Shown: positions 51,374-62,221 of the stretch, one piece after another
Numbering within the stretch: position 1 is the stretch's first letter
How the letters are laid out: every line of letters begins with the position of its first letter
Source of the DNA: Populus alba
Lineage: Eukaryota > Streptophyta > Magnoliopsida > Malpighiales > Salicaceae
NCBI RefSeq assembly: GCF_005239225.2
Contig: NC_133284.1
Coordinates: forward strand, 2,013,770 to 2,077,769
Reading direction: 5' to 3'
Length of the DNA: 64,000 bases
Program-made: the position numbers and the translations under genes
Notes under the pieces: model-generated
The model's input: only the letters and a program-made list of their open reading frames with translations
Databases searched by the model: none
What the model was told of the DNA's origin: nothing

Positions 51374-52084
51374 AATTTCTGATAATTCAACTAGCGAATT
51401 CGACTTGATGTGATATGGAGAGTGTATGAAACAGGCTGTCAAATTTCTGTGTTCTGGCTGCTGATAAGGCTCATTTAGGAGTTCTTCACGAACTCCTCTG
51501 AGAAGCAGAAACCATAATCCATGCACATTGTGCTTGTATTCCACACTAGCTAGTATATAACTTCCAACTTATCATGATTGGTTCTGGTCTCTTGTAAGAT
51601 AAGACCATTGAACTTAATTTCAATATTTGCTTGTTTCTTATAATCATGATTCAACTTTAAGCCTTAACTTCATCCAAGCTCAAAATTATGGAAGAACCCA
51701 GTTAAAAGGTATACTGTACAGGCAAGACATCAAGCGAAGTCCAACATCCAGATTCATGATCCGTTTCTGTTGCTTCAATTGTTAAGGTAGTCTGTGGCCA
51801 TATATGTGTGTGTGTTTCATGCCTTGTAATAACCATCAGTTGAAATTCATGGTTGTTGGACACAAATTTATCGGGCTCAAAATACCTCCTAAAAAGCTCA
51901 AAAAACTCATGAAAGCTCTCACCATCCGGGCGCACACCCAGCATGCTAGGCATGCACTGAACACCCTCGTGGGCTTGGGTTTCGGGTCCATATAATATGC
52001 TTGGATTTATTTTTCGTTATTAATAGACTCGCGCACTTTACTCAAGTCAGCTCATGACTCCTTTAGAAAATATTTTCAAAACTA
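51374..52084. other. NEK 3' flank and intergenic DNA
   Basis: The first 250 bp are presumably NEK 3' UTR. From about 51950 the sequence becomes the flank of the repeated block at 52085. No gene is recognised. Confidence 0.5.
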
Positions 52085-52580
52085 CACGCGAGTCCCTCGA
52101 TATTTTATATTAATCTAATATATATTATTTTGAATATAATACAATTCAAAATATCATAATGATGAAATTACATTTTACTCACTGCTCTTTATAAAATGAC
52201 AAAACTCATGAATTATAAATACACCTTGAATCCTTCAAACTCAAGGTTCACAATCTCTTTATTCTTAAAACTTTCAGCATATATATTTTCAGAGTCTATG
52301 TTTCTAAAATATCATTACACTCTCTCTACAAAGTTGCTAATTTAAGCATCAGAGAGTCCCTACATCCATCAAAGAAGATCTTTTGCAAGTACCAACCACC
52401 AGTTACCTAAACTTACCAGGCACTATCTGCTACCAGCTACCAACCATCTAGGTTTTTCATATCAAACCACCAAACATCTTGTCTAGGAAATATGAATCAG
52501 ATTACTTAAACTAAGAGATTAATCAATTATCCAACACATCAGCCTTATTCATAAACATCTTGAATTTTAGGACTCATCAT
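52085..52580. repeat. First of two related LTR-like blocks
   Basis: It aligns with 53229-53726 at an offset of about 1144 bp. Shared landmarks in order are 'gcgagtc', 'atctaatatatattattttg', 'aatacaa.tcaaaatatcat', 'aaaatgacaaaactc', 'ttataaatac/taccttgaatcc', 'caaagttg' and 'ccttattcataaacat'. A TATAAATA-type promoter sequence inside the block suits a long terminal repeat. Terminal TG/CA ends were not defined. Confidence 0.6.
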
Positions 52581-53228
52581 TTAGCTTTGTTCGGGGGAAA
52601 CTAATAAAAAACCCATCAATTTATAAAACTTGTTTTAACATTTCTAAGCCATTCCATGGTACACAAGCAAGACACACATGATTCAAGATGCAAGACAAAT
52701 CTACCCGTTACCACGCACAATTTTACCTAATATTCAACAACTCACTATTCAGGTGCAACTCCTCACATAGATAGTGTTGGCAATCCAAGAAATAAACCAA
52801 ATCTTGATACCCTCAAGAATACATAACGCCTTAGCGCTACAACCACTAACCGCACCAGGCATCCCTAAACAATTACATCACCCAAATGTGACTAAACAAA
52901 ATAACAATTTTAAGAGTCTCTCAAGGGGTCACAGGCACTATTGCGATACTCATGTACAAAGTCAGTACTCTGAACATCCTCCCTAGGTATCATGGGATGG
53001 ACACCAATTATTGTAATTATCTTTTCATGCCAAACTATATAGGCTCCTAAGAGCTTAACAAACAAATGATTAAGAAACGATATACACATGAGCATACCTA
53101 GAAGAATGACTACAACCCTAATTAGTGGAGGGGTTCTTCATTGTCCAAACGAGTGTTGAACACTCATCTCTAATGGGCTCAAGCACCTTGTCCGAGCCCA
53201 CCACTCCCTTCGAATTTTTTTTAGGACC
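52581..53228. other. Unique segment between the two repeated blocks
   Basis: About 650 bp of sequence contains frames of up to 70 codons with no retroelement domain. If the flanking blocks are LTRs, this would be the interior of a non-autonomous element. No clear primer-binding site or polypurine tract was found. Confidence 0.4.
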
Positions 53229-53726
53229 CCATGCGAGTCATTCGGTATTTCATATAAATCTAATATATATTATTTTGAATATAATACAACTCAAAATATC
53301 ATAAGGGTAAAATTATACTTCAACCCCTTCTCATCATAAAATGACAAAACTCGAGGTTATAAATATACCATGAATCCTTTAAATTCAAGATTCACAATTT
53401 CTTCGTTCATAACACTTTCAGTATTTATATTTTCAAAGTCTACCTTTTTAAAATATCATTATACTTCTTCTTTTTATAAAGTTGTTGACTTAAACATTAA
53501 AAAGTCTTCACATTCATTAAAAATAATTTTTTTATAGGTACAAGTTACTAGCTACACTGGTTTATCAATTATCATCTATCAACAACTACCAACTACCTCA
53601 ACTTTTCATATCAAGTCATTAGACAGTTATGAATAATAAATTAGATTGCTTGAAATAAAAATTTAACCATTAATCCAATATATTTATCTTATTCCTAAAC
53701 ATTTTGTATTCCGATACTCATCAACC
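53229..53726. repeat. Second of two related LTR-like blocks
   Basis: Same landmarks and orientation as 52085-52580. The two differ by many substitutions and small indels, so the duplication is old. See the first block for the shared motifs. Confidence 0.6.
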
Positions 53727-54831
53727 GTAACTTCACATTCCTTTTAGATCATTATACTTCTAAATTATTAACGTGTTTAGCAACTGAAAGCAAAATGCTA
53801 AATCATGGTTACAAGGCATTGATGAATCTTGCCTAGCCAATCATAAAAAAATATTCCTTGATCAATAAAATTTCCAATACACAGGACGTCAAGAAGTTCA
53901 AAGCAAACTGAAAAAAATGAAGTCTAAGTAAGGTATTGCTAAACAACATGAAAGAAGCAGCACCAACCAGAACCAGGTCAGTCCCTTCTGTGGGGCCTGC
54001 AAAATCCAGGGCTAAAATGCCGTGTTGCAATTCCTGCCATGCCACTTTTCTTGGTGGCATGAACCATTCCTCATAGCTCCATCCGCAGGTAATCATTTTT
54101 CTTCTTGCAGCAAATTGTTTGGATCATCGAGTTATTTCCTTATCACCAAGAGTTTTCTAGGGATTTGTTACACGCTTTTCCAAAACCTATTGTAGAGTAA
54201 TTAACCAGAATTTTGCTTTGTAGTTGAAGTAAAAAGAATATCAATTAACGTGAGATCATCCACATCTAACTTAATTCTATTTAATTCATATTTAATGCAA
54301 TAATTAAATTCATTTCTATATATTAGTAACTACTATTACAAGATAAGCCTTATTCGACTTGACTAGGATATGATCAATTAAAACATGATTTAAAAAAAAA
54401 ATTAGACTATCAACTTAACTCCATTCATCTAATTTTTAATCTAAATCCCTGTTTATCTATGTGATAATGGTGTGTTTAAACTCTGTTTAACTTGAAAAAA
54501 ATATATATTTTTATGTTTTTTCAAGCTAAATACAATTTAAATCGCATGAACAATTGTAACCTAAATCTCGAACCGGGTCATCCCAGTTCGGTTATTATAA
54601 ATATGTTAATAACAACGTAGTCGAGGGTAATGAGTTTGGTATCGACTGTAAGGAAAGTCTTCTTCCTTGAACTTTTCGTGTTACTCATTATCAAACAATC
54701 TCCTTCTTTCTCCTCTTTATATTGTTTCCCTCTAAACACAATCACTCCTTCAGTGGAGTGGTCATATATATATCAGCTCTAATCAGTTATTGGGTCGTTG
54801 TCATATAGCGAAAAGAAGCATCTTTTTTTCA
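53727..54831. other. Intergenic DNA and ZIP gene promoter
   Basis: No gene is recognised. A TATA-like run (TATATATAT, about 54764-54772) sits some 60 bp upstream of the ZIP start codon and may be its core promoter. A CT-rich stretch lies at 54690-54730. Confidence 0.45.
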
Positions 54832-57800
54832 ATGGATTCTCAAGTTATGGTAGCTTTGGCTCTCTCTCTTGTGGGTGGATTAAGCACTTCTATAGGTAAG
54901 TTATGCATAAAAGCTTGCAACTTTTTGTGTTTTTCTATGATGGGTTATTCAAAAAGAAACATTTTTTTGTGTTTTTACTTGTGCGAGTGATTTCTTGAAT
55001 CTGAATTATAAACAAGGAGAAATTTAAAAGTTTAGGGATGTTAATGTAGAAGTTGATTGAGAGTTTCTGGTTATGTATAATGAAGACTAGTGATTGAACT
55101 AGTAAGGAATACTTCAGAACTTGCGAATGGAGTTAGTTGACCATGATTTTTTGAATATCAAGTTAAAGAAACAAAACCAATTAGCCTTAATTTCTGTCGA
55201 AGCTTATAAACTTAGCTGGTTTACTAAGATTAGTGTAAGCAGCTCATATGGAGAGATGCAGTAGCTGATTGGTACGATTCAGGAAGAGATAAGCTAGGCA
55301 GCGGATTTTCTGTTTTTTGCACAATATAAGTGAGGGAACTATCAATTAAAGTCAGTGTGTTGCTCTATAGAATGATTAAAAGTTCTGTAGACGGTGGTAT
55401 AACAATTATCAACTCATTATCTCCATTTATCGAATCACCTTAAGAGACCATCTCTTTCTCTCTATATTTTGTTTCTCTTTGAAGGCTGCGTGTGTATATG
55501 TTTGGAGTCTATAATAGTCCAAAACCAAAAACTATATATATAGAGAAGTTAATTATTGAGGATGCTTTTGAACTGGTGAATGGAGGGATTCTTTTTTTCA
55601 GTAAGATGATCATCAAGGAATGGACAATGATTTTTTGATTGTAGTAAATAAATAAATTCATTAGCCTGATTCGTAATTTCCAGACAGGTTACAAAACAAA
55701 TACTCAAGATTCTATTGAAAGTGGTTATTACTTAATTTACTTAGTCTAGTCTAAGCAGCTCATACAGGGAGAGGTAGTAACTGACAAGTGTGGGACAGTA
55801 AGAGAGATGCTGAGGCAAATTTTCTATTTTCACCCAGTATAAGTGAGGGAATAATCTGTTCATCAAATGCTGCACAAGAGGACAATTGAAAGTTAGGTTG
55901 ACTGTATAGAATGCAGTGGTAGGAACGATCAACTTATTTTCTCCTTTTATTGAATCACTTTATGAAACCATCACATTCTTTTTATATTCCTTTCTTTCAG
56001 AAGGCTGGTGTACGCAGATGTATGTAATCCATAGTAGTAATACTCAGCATACATTACACCTCCCAAGTCCCAACACTCATATTTTTCTATATTATTAACA
56101 TTTTGGTCCAAGTGAGAGTATCTCCATGGACAGTTTCATGATGATCGTGCTTGGTGTTTCTGTTTTGGGTGGTTTGAGTACTTCATTGAGTTAGCTAATA
56201 ACACTTGTTTACATGATATGGCATGAAATTCAAATATTACTACTGACTATTGTTTTTACTCCTCAAGTTTTGATTATTTTTCATTGGTAGTAACTATAGT
56301 TGTTTTTGGCTACTTGCCGACTTTGCGTATGGACACTGGTTTCTCCTGTTTCCTATATGGTTTCACACATTTGAATGAAATGAAAAATAATACTACTATT
56401 GAAGGTTTTGGTAGTGTGTTTTTTGGTGTTGAGGTTTTGTTGGGATCAAGAATCTCTTCAGTTGAGTTGTAATGATCACTATGTGATATTAAATTTGTAA
56501 CAAACTCGATCAGAAACAAAAATGACCAGCATTTTTTTCTATATCGTCATTGCAAATCTGATTTAAGTTAAAAGGTGATTTAACTCTTTATTGGGATACT
56601 ATTTTTTCCTCCAACATGCCTGTTAATCAGATGAAGCTAGTTCAGGTTACATGTTCTATAATCTGATTATATCTCTTGGATTATGAAACAGGTGCACTCT
56701 TTGTAATTCTTTTTGAGGCTCCCAATTTGAAGATGCTTGGACTATTACAGGTACAAGTAGTTGCAAGGAAAAAAAAATCCCGCTTTAGTGTATTATCAAC
56801 CTATGAAAGGATAGTGGTTTCTTCACATGTTTATGAAAGGATGTTGTGGCATGGAGTTACCATGAATGATCCTAACGTGATTTTATATTCCAGGGGAAAT
56901 TTTTTGCATTAATACTTTCTAAACTTCTCTATGCAGGGTTTTGCTGCAGGCCTGATGCTGAGCATATCATTCCTTGATCTTGCTCATAATGCTATCAACT
57001 CAATTGGGTTCTTAAAAGGCAACCTCTGGGTTAGCTGTATCTTTCCTTTTTTTCATAAAATCCAATTGCATTTCTTACTAGACATTATTTATTCATTTAT
57101 ACCTGTCATTTTCTTCTATTAATTGGCTTTGCAGTTTTTTGGAGGTGTTGTATTCTTTGGCATCATTGCCAATTTTATCCCAGAGCCAACATTTGCCCCA
57201 AGTTCAGATGTTAAAAGTAAAAAGGTTCTGGGTGATACAGTTTTGTAATACTTAAATGTTTTGTGACTTTCACGACGTGGCTAGAATATTAGAATGTAGA
57301 GTGACAGTTTGGCAATTGTTTGGGAACAGAAAAATGGCGACCAAGGGGGAAAGGACATAATTAAAAAGCATCGTCGCCAAGTTTTGTTCAGTGGAATTAT
57401 CACTGCAATAGGTATAACTACCTTCTCTGATCCTGTTCTATCACTATCCAACTTCAATTTTATTTGCTTTCAGGCCTTGTTTTTTTTCTATTTTTTTCTT
57501 TGACTAAACCTCGAGATATCAGAATTCAGTCCCCCAATAGTTGGAAACTGTAAATTTGGCACCTTCCTATTTTTTGAAAAGGTTTGTAAACTTGTCTGAT
57601 TGGATTGAATCTTGTCTTTCATGGATCTCAGGAATAAGTTTGCATAACTTTCCAGAGGGAATGGCAGTGTTCCTTGGATCAATTAAGGTATCCTCGGCCT
57701 TATTTGAATCTCTCTGTAGTGTCAGTATTCAATTCAGCTGCAACATATCTACATAGATTTTAGTGCTTATGCCAGTCTTAAAATGCACCTGTCTTGAATG

Positions 57801-60436
57801 AAATGTACTCATCAAGCTTTATCCTGAAAAAAAGGAACACGAAGGGTCTTTCTCAAAATCTTAATGTATGACTTGAACAAATTTGAGCTTCAATTTAGCA
57901 CTAAGGTACTGCACAATTCCTTATACCTGCACGCTATTTTTACCTGAATAGTTTCTTTGGTTTCCTGGGTTGCATTTGCATGCCATTTTAACTGTGTTAA
58001 GTCATAAAATATTCCTGTGCTATGGAGATTGTTTATTCAACATTGATATTTTGAAGATGAGAAAACTGAAACATTCAGCTGCACTATTTATTCAATGGGC
58101 ACCCAATCAAGCAGTTATTCAGTTCCTTTTTTTTAGTGGTACAATTGCTCTGCATCTGAAAGAAACAAATTCATTGATTTTCAAAGCACTATCATGAATT
58201 GCCAAACTACAACAGCAAAGGATATTTGGTTATGATGTCAAAGATTTTTTTTTCCTATACTTTTGCCTGCAGTCACGTTACACTTCAATATTTGGCAGTC
58301 CTGGATGTAACCAAATTTGTACCACTTGGTTTTAGATATTAATCTTACTGTGCATGTTCTTTCAATTAAATGCAATTGGCAATTGTAAGTTATCTATGAT
58401 TGTTTTAATTTTGGGTCTTGAGTTTTGGAAGCCTTTTTCTTATCCTTGGGTAAGTCAATTTTGTCATCTTCTTTTTAATGATACTTTCGTAGGGCCTCCG
58501 TGTTGGTCTTAATTTGGCTCTGGCAATTGCTTTGCACAACATTCCAGAGGTATGTTTTCTTTGATTCTGTAGTATTGCCTTTTTGCATATGCTATTGGTT
58601 CTTCAAAGTGGTTGCTTCCTTCCAGAATGAAGTTGGTTCCTTTAAACTTCAAACATTTCCAGTGCCAAATATTTATGGATGGGAATTAAAAAAATTTGAT
58701 GAGTTCTGCTGTCAGCATTAATGCGTTTTAAGTTTGTTTTCTGGTTTTATAGACACGATGCACAATTTATCCTATGATAAGATTTGACTTAGAGCAGTGG
58801 ATATATTTGTTTTTTTTATTTTGAAAGTTCTATGATATTGTACTTAGGATCCACCCTAACACACAGGATATTTTTTTGTGGTTTGTCCCCACAAGGACTA
58901 TTGTGCCAGTTGATATACAAAACCTTGGTTACCAGATTTCCCTGTATTTAGACACGAAGCTACTTATTTATAACTTGCATGATCCTTTTTTCCCATCTAC
59001 AAATATATAAATAGGGGGGATTTTCCGTTTTGTCTGAACTTCTTTATGTTCATTTATACAGGGTGTTGCTGTTGCACTTCCTATATATTTTGCAACGCAG
59101 AGGTAAAAATCTCTCGAGGCACTGTACGTTTCAGCCCTCTAAAGCATCAGTAAAACCTGCTTTGGAAAGCATTGGTCCAAAGCATGTCTTATGTGGTAGT
59201 AGCTTAAAAAGGTTCTTTATTGGAAATAAGAATCAACAAAATAGGGACATGACCATTGTGGTGGTAGAGGTGGAGATAGTTCCCCTGTTTACTACTTAAC
59301 TCTAGAGCTAGCAGGGTATAGTGACCGAGTAATGAGCATAGAGGTCAGAAACTGCCCTGGAGTTTCATATAATTTTTTGAATATTACGACTGCTGAAGAT
59401 AGTCAAGGCAGCAACTGTATTGTTGTATGTTATGTCCATGTATTGTAGCTAAATTTGAAAATCAGAAGTGCTGCTGTTATTGGGGTAGCATTAGTGGCTA
59501 CCATGGCAGCTGAATCTATTCACTAACACTCTTTGTTTGGCCTTAATCTTCAAATCCTGAAGAAAGCAAGGATTTCAAACAAAAGAAAGCATGCTACGAT
59601 TTTAGTGCATATCATTTAATCATATGATTTAGTGCATACAACAACTTTTTGCTCCAGACTGCAGCCACCTTCCTAGGTGGTCGGAGTGATTAGATATGTA
59701 GTAGATGCCCTCATTTATTTGACTACAGTGTTCTGGTTTCTTTTCTATCTGATGTTTTTTGGCCACATGTTTTGTGCAGCTATTTCTACATATTAGAATT
59801 TATTGCATTGTACTCGTAATATAAATTAACTGGTTGATTTCTTTACACATTTCAGCAAGTGGCAGGCATTCAAATTGGCGACAGTTTCCGGTTTTGCTGA
59901 GCCGCTTGGCGTGGTGCTTGTTGGTATGACAACTTCTTTTTATTGCTTGTAATGCCAAAGCATGGGATATCATTTAATTTTGACCAACAAGAATGTCCTT
60001 TTCCTTAACTGCAGCATATCTATTCCCAAGCAGCTTAAGTCCTGAAATTCTTGAGGGTTTGCTCGCATCAGGTATGCAGTACCATTTATTTCTCAGTTAT
60101 CTCTGATGATTTAGGAAAATTAATTTGCTATTTCAATCTCAATAACTCTATGTTTCATTTGCAGTTGGTGGAGTGATGGCTTTCCTAACCTTGCATGAAA
60201 TGCTGCCACTGGCATTTGATTATGCGGGTCAGAAACAAGCTGTCAAGGCTGTATTCTTTGGTATGGCTTTCATGTCGGCAAGGTAATAGAACTCATACTG
60301 TACATGTTTATCCTAATTATCATTATCATTATTATTATTTGTCACAAAATCCGAATCATCTTTCTCACATGTATTGATACTGGTCTGCAGCCTATATTTT
60401 CTTGAAATCAGCCTCCCTGAGGAGATGAGCTTGTAG
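54832..60436 (+). CDS. ZTP29-like: ZIP-family zinc transporter, GufA type, ZTP29-like
   Basis: Twelve coding exons give 276 aa: 54832-54895, 56692-56750, 56937-57029, 57135-57224, 57330-57411, 57632-57687, 58493-58549, 59062-59102, 59856-59923, 60015-60071, 60165-60282 and 60391-60436. The product is a multi-pass membrane protein. The metal-site helices carry HNFPEG (134-139) and HNIPEG (163-168), both intact, and EPLG (196-199). A Lys/His-containing cytosolic loop (about 98-118, KKKNGDQGGKDIIKKHRR) lies between membrane segments 3 and 4. Length and sequence match Arabidopsis ZTP29 (At3g20870), described as an ER zinc transporter tied to salt response and the unfolded-protein response; transfer of that role is inference. 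Intron 1 is 1.8 kb and holds a second copy of exon 1 at 56126-56189. Intron 8 is poorly conserved and 753 bp long. Confidence 0.95.
55020..56045 (+). repeat. Old tandem duplication inside ZTP29 intron 1
   Basis: About 55020-55515 and 55545-56045 share an ordered series of matches at an offset of about 480-520 bp. Examples are 'gcagctcata' (55239 and 55755), 'ataagtgaggga', 'tctcc.tttat.gaatcac' (55420 and 55940) and 'aaggctg' (55482 and 56001). Divergence is substantial. The duplicated unit lies between exon 1 and the second exon-1 copy, which suggests one event copied exon and intron together. Confidence 0.65.
56126..56189 (+). other. Second, diverged copy of ZTP29 exon 1 (possible alternative first exon)
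   Basis: From ATG (56126) to the base before a GTTAGC donor (56190) the segment is exactly 64 nt, the same as exon 1 (54832-54895), with no indel. It encodes MDSFMM...GGLSTSL. In a codon-by-codon comparison 12 of 21 residues are identical, and the rest are mostly hydrophobic swaps. Six of the identical codons differ only synonymously (GAT/GAC, TCT/AGT, GGA/GGT, TTA/TTG, AGC/AGT, TCT/TCA). It ends in the same phase, so splicing to exon 2 would read ...Ser-Ala-Leu-Phe in frame. The start context is CTCCATGG. Whether it is transcribed is unknown. Confidence 0.75.
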
Positions 60437-62221
60437 CTGTGGATCAGCTTAATCAACCTCCGATTGTACATTCCCAAACCAGAGAGAACTAGGTCGTGCT
60501 GCAGGATGCCTGTGTGATGTCACATTGACATCCGAGAATTTGACCTCTCCAGAAGGCCAAACAGGCGGCACAATCCTTGAGAACACGGCGGTTTCCAGCT
60601 TTAAGCACCTCAAAATTGTACTGATCTTCTTACTCTGAATGGTGTGAAAATCTAAAATGGCAATAAGGGTTGACAAGGGGAACAATTATGGATTGCATAC
60701 TCTTCAATGAAGTTCGTTTCATTTATCATAGTTTTGCCGCTCAATGAGCTTCCAAGTATTCTGCTGCTTGCTTGAAGATAAATGGTTTCTGGGCTAGCAA
60801 GTTACAAGCTTTAGTTCTACAAAATAGATGAAAATGAGAGCTTTAGTTATCACAATTGATGCCAGCCCTTGTTTTTCCTAACATAACAGCAGAAACAATG
60901 GGATGGAAAATAGAAGAAAAGGCTGCAACCAGGGGGGTTGGTGGGTCTCTTCGTGTGTGTTTGTATTTGAGGTAGAGGTTGAGGTTTAGGTGGGGGATCC
61001 ATTAAAAAACAAGAAAAAATAGCTTTTTGTGGTTGAGGTTGGTGCATAAATAGGTTGTACCCAATCATAACCTCAACCACAAAAGCAAAAACAAACACAC
61101 TCGATCAACATGCAATCACGGTTGAAAAATGCAGTATTTTAAAAACCACAGTTGGGAACTGCGGTATTTAAACAAGCCACAGATGAAAACTACGTATTTG
61201 AAAGAAGACATCTTTATACTAAAAATTGGCTATGCTATTATTTTTATATAAAAAAAAATCGCAATTCTCACCTACAGTTTTATAAAGCGCAATTCTAACC
61301 TACGGTTTTTATATGGGTTTTTTTTATAAAAAAAAATTCACGTGAGAATTGCCGTCTCTTCAGATACGTTATTTTTCACACAAAAAAAAAATTCAGTACT
61401 AGTGTTAGTTTATTATTTTTTTAAAAAAAGAAAAATGTGCTATTTTAAAAAGGAAAAATCGACGAAGTGGGATAGGTCTTGTGTACATAGAACTGTGAAA
61501 GGCTCCAACATTAGTCCATGAAGATATAAAGGAACGGATTTGCAATTCCTTCTTTAGTAAATGAAGTTGATCTGCATAAATCAAATTCATGTTAAATCCA
61601 TCAAGTCAGCTCGAGGACTAATATGAAAAAGGGTCGAACTCACTAATTCACACTATATCCATACTTGACTCATCATGTCAAAATTAATTAATTAACATCC
61701 TTTAATTATTTTTTAAAATGTTATTTTTTAGATTTAACTTATTCAAGTTCAAAAAAATTACTAAAAACTTTATCGAGTTAACTTTTTTTTATCCAACTTA
61801 AAATGCAATCTAAATTAAGATATGAATCACATAATTTCTAGTTTGAGTCCGGATCATGTTTAATATTAAGCTTATTACACAATGAACCTCTTGCACCTAT
61901 GCATGGTTCAGACAATCAGATATCCTTACATCTCACACACGCACACACACACAGAGATGACTCAAAATGAAGTTGCAGAAACTTGGTCTCACATTTTTCA
62001 ATGAGGATTCTTCTAAACTAAACAGCTACTAAAGTGGGAAAGGGGGTGCCAGAAAACATAAATAAAAGAGCGAGTAACTCTAATCCTTGATAGGATTCTT
62101 CCTCTAAATATCCATGATTTTGTGTAAAACACAAGAGGTATCAACTAAAAATTAACAAGATTTCAAACATATAATAATTTCATTGAATGGATTCATTATC
62201 TTGATCAATTTTAGAGGCTGG
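60437..62221. other. ZTP29 3' UTR and intergenic DNA
   Basis: The first 400 bp are probably 3' UTR. Near 61261-61310 two direct repeats begin 'gcaattct.acctac.gtttt'. Decayed retroelement-like sequence covers about 61590-61880, and a short CA run is near 61937-61953. No gene is recognised. Confidence 0.5.

Follow-up and report, generated by a model that had tools for sequence, protein, structure and literature searches.

The window, meaning the whole stretch of 64,000 nucleotides of Populus alba DNA that was analysed (contig C1, 2013770-2077769), contains a ZTP29 gene of 12 exons (54832-60436). The gene model is uninterrupted from start to stop and encodes a protein of 276 amino acids (Table 1). 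Its product with the ordinary first exon, here called exon A (A form), differs by one residue from P0005, the ZTP29 of Populus alba x berolinensis, and by two residues from P0008 of P. trichocarpa (POPTR_001G018800). Arabidopsis ZTP29, reportedly the subject of Wang et al. 2010, belongs to the same gene family. Intron 1 holds a second version of exon 1, here called exon B. Joined to exon 2, exon B also gives an uninterrupted 276-amino acid protein (B form), with Ser at position 22. Both forms have the conserved domain PF02535 of the ZIP family (A form 86.7 bits, B form 85.7 bits; cut-off 35.1 bits). An initial annotation of this DNA had predicted such a ZIP transporter with Ser in place of Gly at the junction, and the joined reading frame agrees with this. 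The metal-binding HNxPEG motifs sit in exons common to both forms.

Table 1. Features of the ZTP29 locus, in coordinates of the window
Feature	Position	Strand	Remarks
Exon A, coding exon 1 of ZTP29	54832..54895	+	encodes MDSQVMVALALSLVGGLSTSI; donor GTAAGT
Two diverged tandem copies of a non-coding unit of about 450-500 bp, between A and B	55094..56058	+	copies at about 55094-55536 and 55568-56058
50 bases before B, candidate 5' leader/promoter or weak acceptor	56076..56125	+	45/50 identical to sister gene
Exon B, copy of exon 1 in intron 1	56126..56189	+	encodes MDSFMMIVLGVSVLGGLSTSL; phase 1; GTTAGC from 56190
60 bases after B, start of the downstream intron	56190..56249	+	54/60 identical to sister gene
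Exon 2, partner for joining to A or B	56692..56750	+	gene model
Exons 3-5	56937-57029, 57135-57224, 57330-57411	+	open 276-aa frame
Exons 6-8	57632-57687, 58493-58549, 59062-59102	+	open 276-aa frame
Exons 9-12	59856-59923, 60015-60071, 60165-60282, 60391-60436	+	open 276-aa frame

The limits proposed for exon B in the initial annotation are exact. B equals exon A in length and phase, has a start codon and aligns with no indel (38/64 nucleotides and 12/21 residues identical; BLOSUM62 score 63). The next best ungapped 21-residue match to exon A in six frames of the 64-kb window scores 25, and none of 300 dinucleotide-shuffled introns reached 63 (maximum 28, three forward frames). A chance resemblance to A would leave these scores unaccounted for, as it would the presence of the same segment in a sister gene and in willow proteins (see below), and its probability is negligible. 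The two exons are apparently the only copies at these loci: scans of the forward frames at the window gene (52001-61000) and at the sister locus revealed no third copy (next best scores 15-25). B has the marks of a duplicated exon, namely homology to the neighbouring exon, equal length and equal phase. It also has the structure of a type I alternative first exon, with its own ATG, an open frame and a donor GT in phase with exon 2, the base before this GT being A. The donor had been described as usable. The GT is indeed present, and the hexamer GTTAGC is the same as that following exon 3 of the window gene, but the preceding A is unlike the G found at 11/11 donors of the gene model. A and B have about the same hydropathy, which gives no ground to argue for a difference in targeting.

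The differences between the two exons are of a coding type. Synonymous changes occur at seven codons (2, 3, 9, 16, 17, 18 and 20), against six in the initial annotation. By codon position (first/second/third) the differences across the 21 codons number 9/4/12. When 25 random substitutions were placed on exon A, the probability that at least 12 of 21 residues were kept was 0.002-0.003; under each of two models, 40,000 trials yielded no score as high as 63. By the counting method of Nei and Gojobori, dN is 0.39; dS, for which just 15 synonymous sites were available, is about 2.0 (one-sided lower bound 0.84); the dN/dS ratio of the two copies, a check suggested with the initial annotation, is thus about 0.2. 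The 60-nucleotide flanks of A and B, on the other hand, show no likeness beyond chance (P=0.77 and 0.15), although the exons match. A wider duplication that took in both promoter and exon was also considered and rejected, as the regions before A and before B are not significantly alike (z 1.9 against 60 shuffles). Judged by the score against shuffles, the random-substitution trials, dN/dS and the likeness of the exons as opposed to their flanks, B is an old copy that diverged from A mostly under coding constraint.

The genome (416 Mb, 96 contigs) was searched with 200 bases of exon A, which identified one further place, on contig C3. A search with 200 bases around B found two places, the window and C3:21685501-21685701. 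The C3 gene has an open frame of 276 amino acids, with exons projected by alignment, and its exon A is identical to that of the window at 61/64 positions; all three differences are synonymous. Comparison of the window with 13.9 kb of C3 gave 16 blast blocks, of which nine along the gene and two upstream (51377-51727) are collinear and five are not. The intron distance between the two genes is 0.259, a value that plausibly fits a salicoid sister gene, and the two are presumably a pair from the salicoid genome duplication. This duplication has been dated to about 58-65 million years (PMC6450953). Intron 1 of the sister gene has B in the corresponding position, the distance from the start of A to the start of B being 864 bases on C3 and 1294 in the window. 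Because B occupies the same place in both genes, it is, by position, older than the duplication that split them, and the size of the A-B dS suggests that it is much older. In the C3 gene of poplar the start codon of B is ACG and the donor GT has become CT. With both lost, this copy is dead as a first exon; it differs further by M6I, I7F and L17S.

Between A and B, the window intron contains two tandem copies of a non-coding unit (72-80% identical in ungapped blocks). Since their matches in the sister intron overlap in one stretch, that intron may have a single unit.

Relatives were sought with residues 1-60 of the B form. The search matched 420 clusters (499 candidates), of which 120 were listed; 116 of the listed clusters begin with an A-type exon, three have a B-type start and one lacks the region. 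All three B-type starts among these 120 are from Salix: P0002 (S. suchowensis, a cluster of 24), P0003 (S. koriyanagi) and P0004 (S. brachista). These proteins are database predictions, and each carries MDTFMMIVLGISVLGGLSTSLG joined to exon 2. In a structure prediction for P0002, residues 3-29 form one helix (mean pLDDT 41). A tree of 19 rows built without exon 1 groups the three with P0084 of poplar and P0090 of S. viminalis (support 100/99), at the only starred fork of the 16 in the tree. P0084 and P0090 carry exon A, and P0084 differs from the product of the C3 gene at 1/180 residues. As B-type and A-type proteins fall into one clade, the C3-type gene is predicted to own both exons. The residues F4, V8 and V13 are common to the B copies of the window, C3 and willow, and occur in 0/24 A-type rows; by this measure B is its own version of exon 1. 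No poplar protein of B type is present among the 120 listed relatives. A search for fragments also found none of B type (42 hits, 10 of them over exon 1, all nearer A), a result limited by the 90% clustering of the database, in which full-length A and B forms would merge.

Two other relatives are unusual in themselves. P0129, a ZTP29-like fragment filed as Escherichia coli (a 313-base contig), is probably plant contamination. P0001, the ZTP29 of Morella rubra, repeats the stretch from GALFV to the HNFPEG region, a sign of either partial duplication of the gene or an error in the model.

The start, frame and GT of the window copy of B are all intact. It differs from willow B at 2/21 residues (3 and 11), and at 0.25 substitutions per site neutral evolution would leave at most two residue differences and no stop with a probability of 0.0025, a value that is somewhat flattering since the willow sequences were found through their likeness to B. 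Five residues (1, 3, 6, 7 and 17) differ between the window and C3 copies. When polarised by comparison with willow, residues 1, 6, 7 and 17 have changed in the C3 copy of poplar, and residue 11 has changed in willow. Both C3-type copies (poplar C3 and willow) share T3. With S3, the residue in exon A, as the ancestral state, none of the 21 codons in the window copy would have changed after the duplication; the probability of this is 0.003 at 0.13 substitutions per site, or 0.022 with one change allowed.

Other features of B argue against its present use. Gly occupies the site of residue 22 in 118/118 scored relatives (those containing ALFV; two of the 120 listed lack it and were excluded), where window B has Ser. 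Both poplar copies of B end in A, whereas willow has Gly, so this change cannot be polarised. Of positions 1-22, 11 are invariant in the 24 A-type rows; window B retains seven of these and departs at 7, 8, 11 and 22. Between the poplar sisters B is identical at 54/64 positions, which is not above its flanks (Table 1), and 23% of the gene's 64-nucleotide intron windows reach this similarity. That B has no indels is not informative: the P of this is 0.30 over the whole path and 0.55 over a single lineage. Given Gly22 to Ser and the A as last exon base, window B is probably weakly used or early in loss. The initial annotation held that B was under coding constraint and not simply decaying. This appears correct for the past, in view of the dN and dS values and the willow B-type models, and is questionable for the present, in view of the Ser for Gly, the A before GT and the dead sister copy.

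It is quite possible, if on balance doubtful, that B is a relic: a former alternative first exon, non-functional in poplar, of which the window copy has not yet been disabled and which willow annotation pipelines took up as an open-frame fossil. The loss of the C3 copy, the altered residue 22 and donor context, the conservation no better than that of the flanks and the lack of a poplar B-type protein among the 120 listed would all be expected of such a relic. It agrees poorly with the closeness of window and willow B and its low neutral probability. It also agrees poorly with the placing of four of the five poplar-copy differences on the C3 side, the fifth falling on the C3-type side as well if S3 is ancestral.

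The surroundings of B bear on two further explanations. The block 56076-56249 is identical at 153/174 positions between the sisters; only 0.07% of equal-length windows in the gene's other introns match this (maximum also 153), the limits of the block having been set after the alignment was inspected. The block might then be maintained for a regulatory role in intron 1, with the exon inside it incidental, and the flanks are at least as conserved as the exon. However, such an element would leave the coding-type divergence of A and B and the B-type starts of willow unexplained, and this explanation is improbable.

The sequence before B is also a candidate acceptor, ending GTGAGAG and followed by TATCTCC-ATG. 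In the predicted protein P0004, exon A in another frame is joined straight to B, between AG and TATCTCC. In the window, exon A is likewise open in the second frame into B (54772-54895 + 56119-56189); in A's own frame the same join meets a stop seven codons past residue 21. B could thus be an internal exon spliced after A, the early stop lowering output or handing the start to the ATG of B. The P0004 join, its open counterpart in the window and the similarity of the 50 bases before B in the sisters are consistent with this. The arrangement was found, however, in P0004 and in no other protein among the 17 candidates from a search with that part, and the candidate acceptor ends in GAG, whereas CAG or TAG closes 11/11 acceptors in the gene model. 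An internal exon is accordingly unlikely. Given this acceptor, and P0004 notwithstanding, B is most likely a first exon.

The preferred explanation, to which a probability of roughly 0.6 is assigned, is that B is an ancient alternative first exon, long constrained and unevenly kept among the sister genes of Salicaceae, whose current use in this poplar is doubtful. The proposed model for its use is as follows. Transcription would start in intron 1, from a promoter belonging to B, and translation would begin at the ATG of B. The transcript would be spliced from the GT of B to exon 2. The resulting ZIP transporter would be unchanged except for the N-terminal half of its first membrane helix. The promoter of B, the splicing of B to exon 2 in RNA and any difference in targeting or regulation are parts of the model that we infer from sequence. 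A more tentative extension concerns the sister genes. From a time well before the salicoid duplication, ZTP29 of Salicaceae may have possessed a pair of interchangeable first exons and, with them, two versions of the first membrane helix; after the duplication, lineages may have kept B on different sisters (in this poplar on the C1 gene, in willow on the C3-type gene), such that an alternative isoform came to be shared out between sister genes.

Exons 4A and 4B of ZIP14 are a mutually exclusive duplicated pair. Alternative splicing of these exons of SLC39A14 (ZIP14) is described in PMC5748785, and ZTP29 resembles this case in that a transporter of the ZIP family has two versions of one coding exon. 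Unlike the ZIP14 exons, which are internal and belong to an animal gene, B belongs to a plant gene, stands first and brings its own start codon. In plants, alternative first exons are an established type of variation (Chen et al. 2007, PMC2174465). Exons A and B resemble the type I alternative first exons of that study, with two first exons, shared downstream exons and a changed N-terminus. They differ in that A and B are homologous duplicates, the text of PMC2174465 having no mention of duplication or homology, and in that the use of B is predicted from sequence. A partial literature search, covering titles and the openings of abstracts, found no report of a second first exon in ZTP29.

What is noteworthy in B is how old it is and how unevenly it has fared among sister genes, alternative first exons themselves being already known. 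If B is a relic, it would be a dated example of a duplicated first exon in decay, and those willow annotations that have B as their start would call for confirmation or correction. If B is used, promoter choice would let a plant zinc transporter exchange the beginning of its first membrane helix, and the sister genes of poplar and willow would offer a ready comparison of how isoforms are divided or lost after genome duplication.
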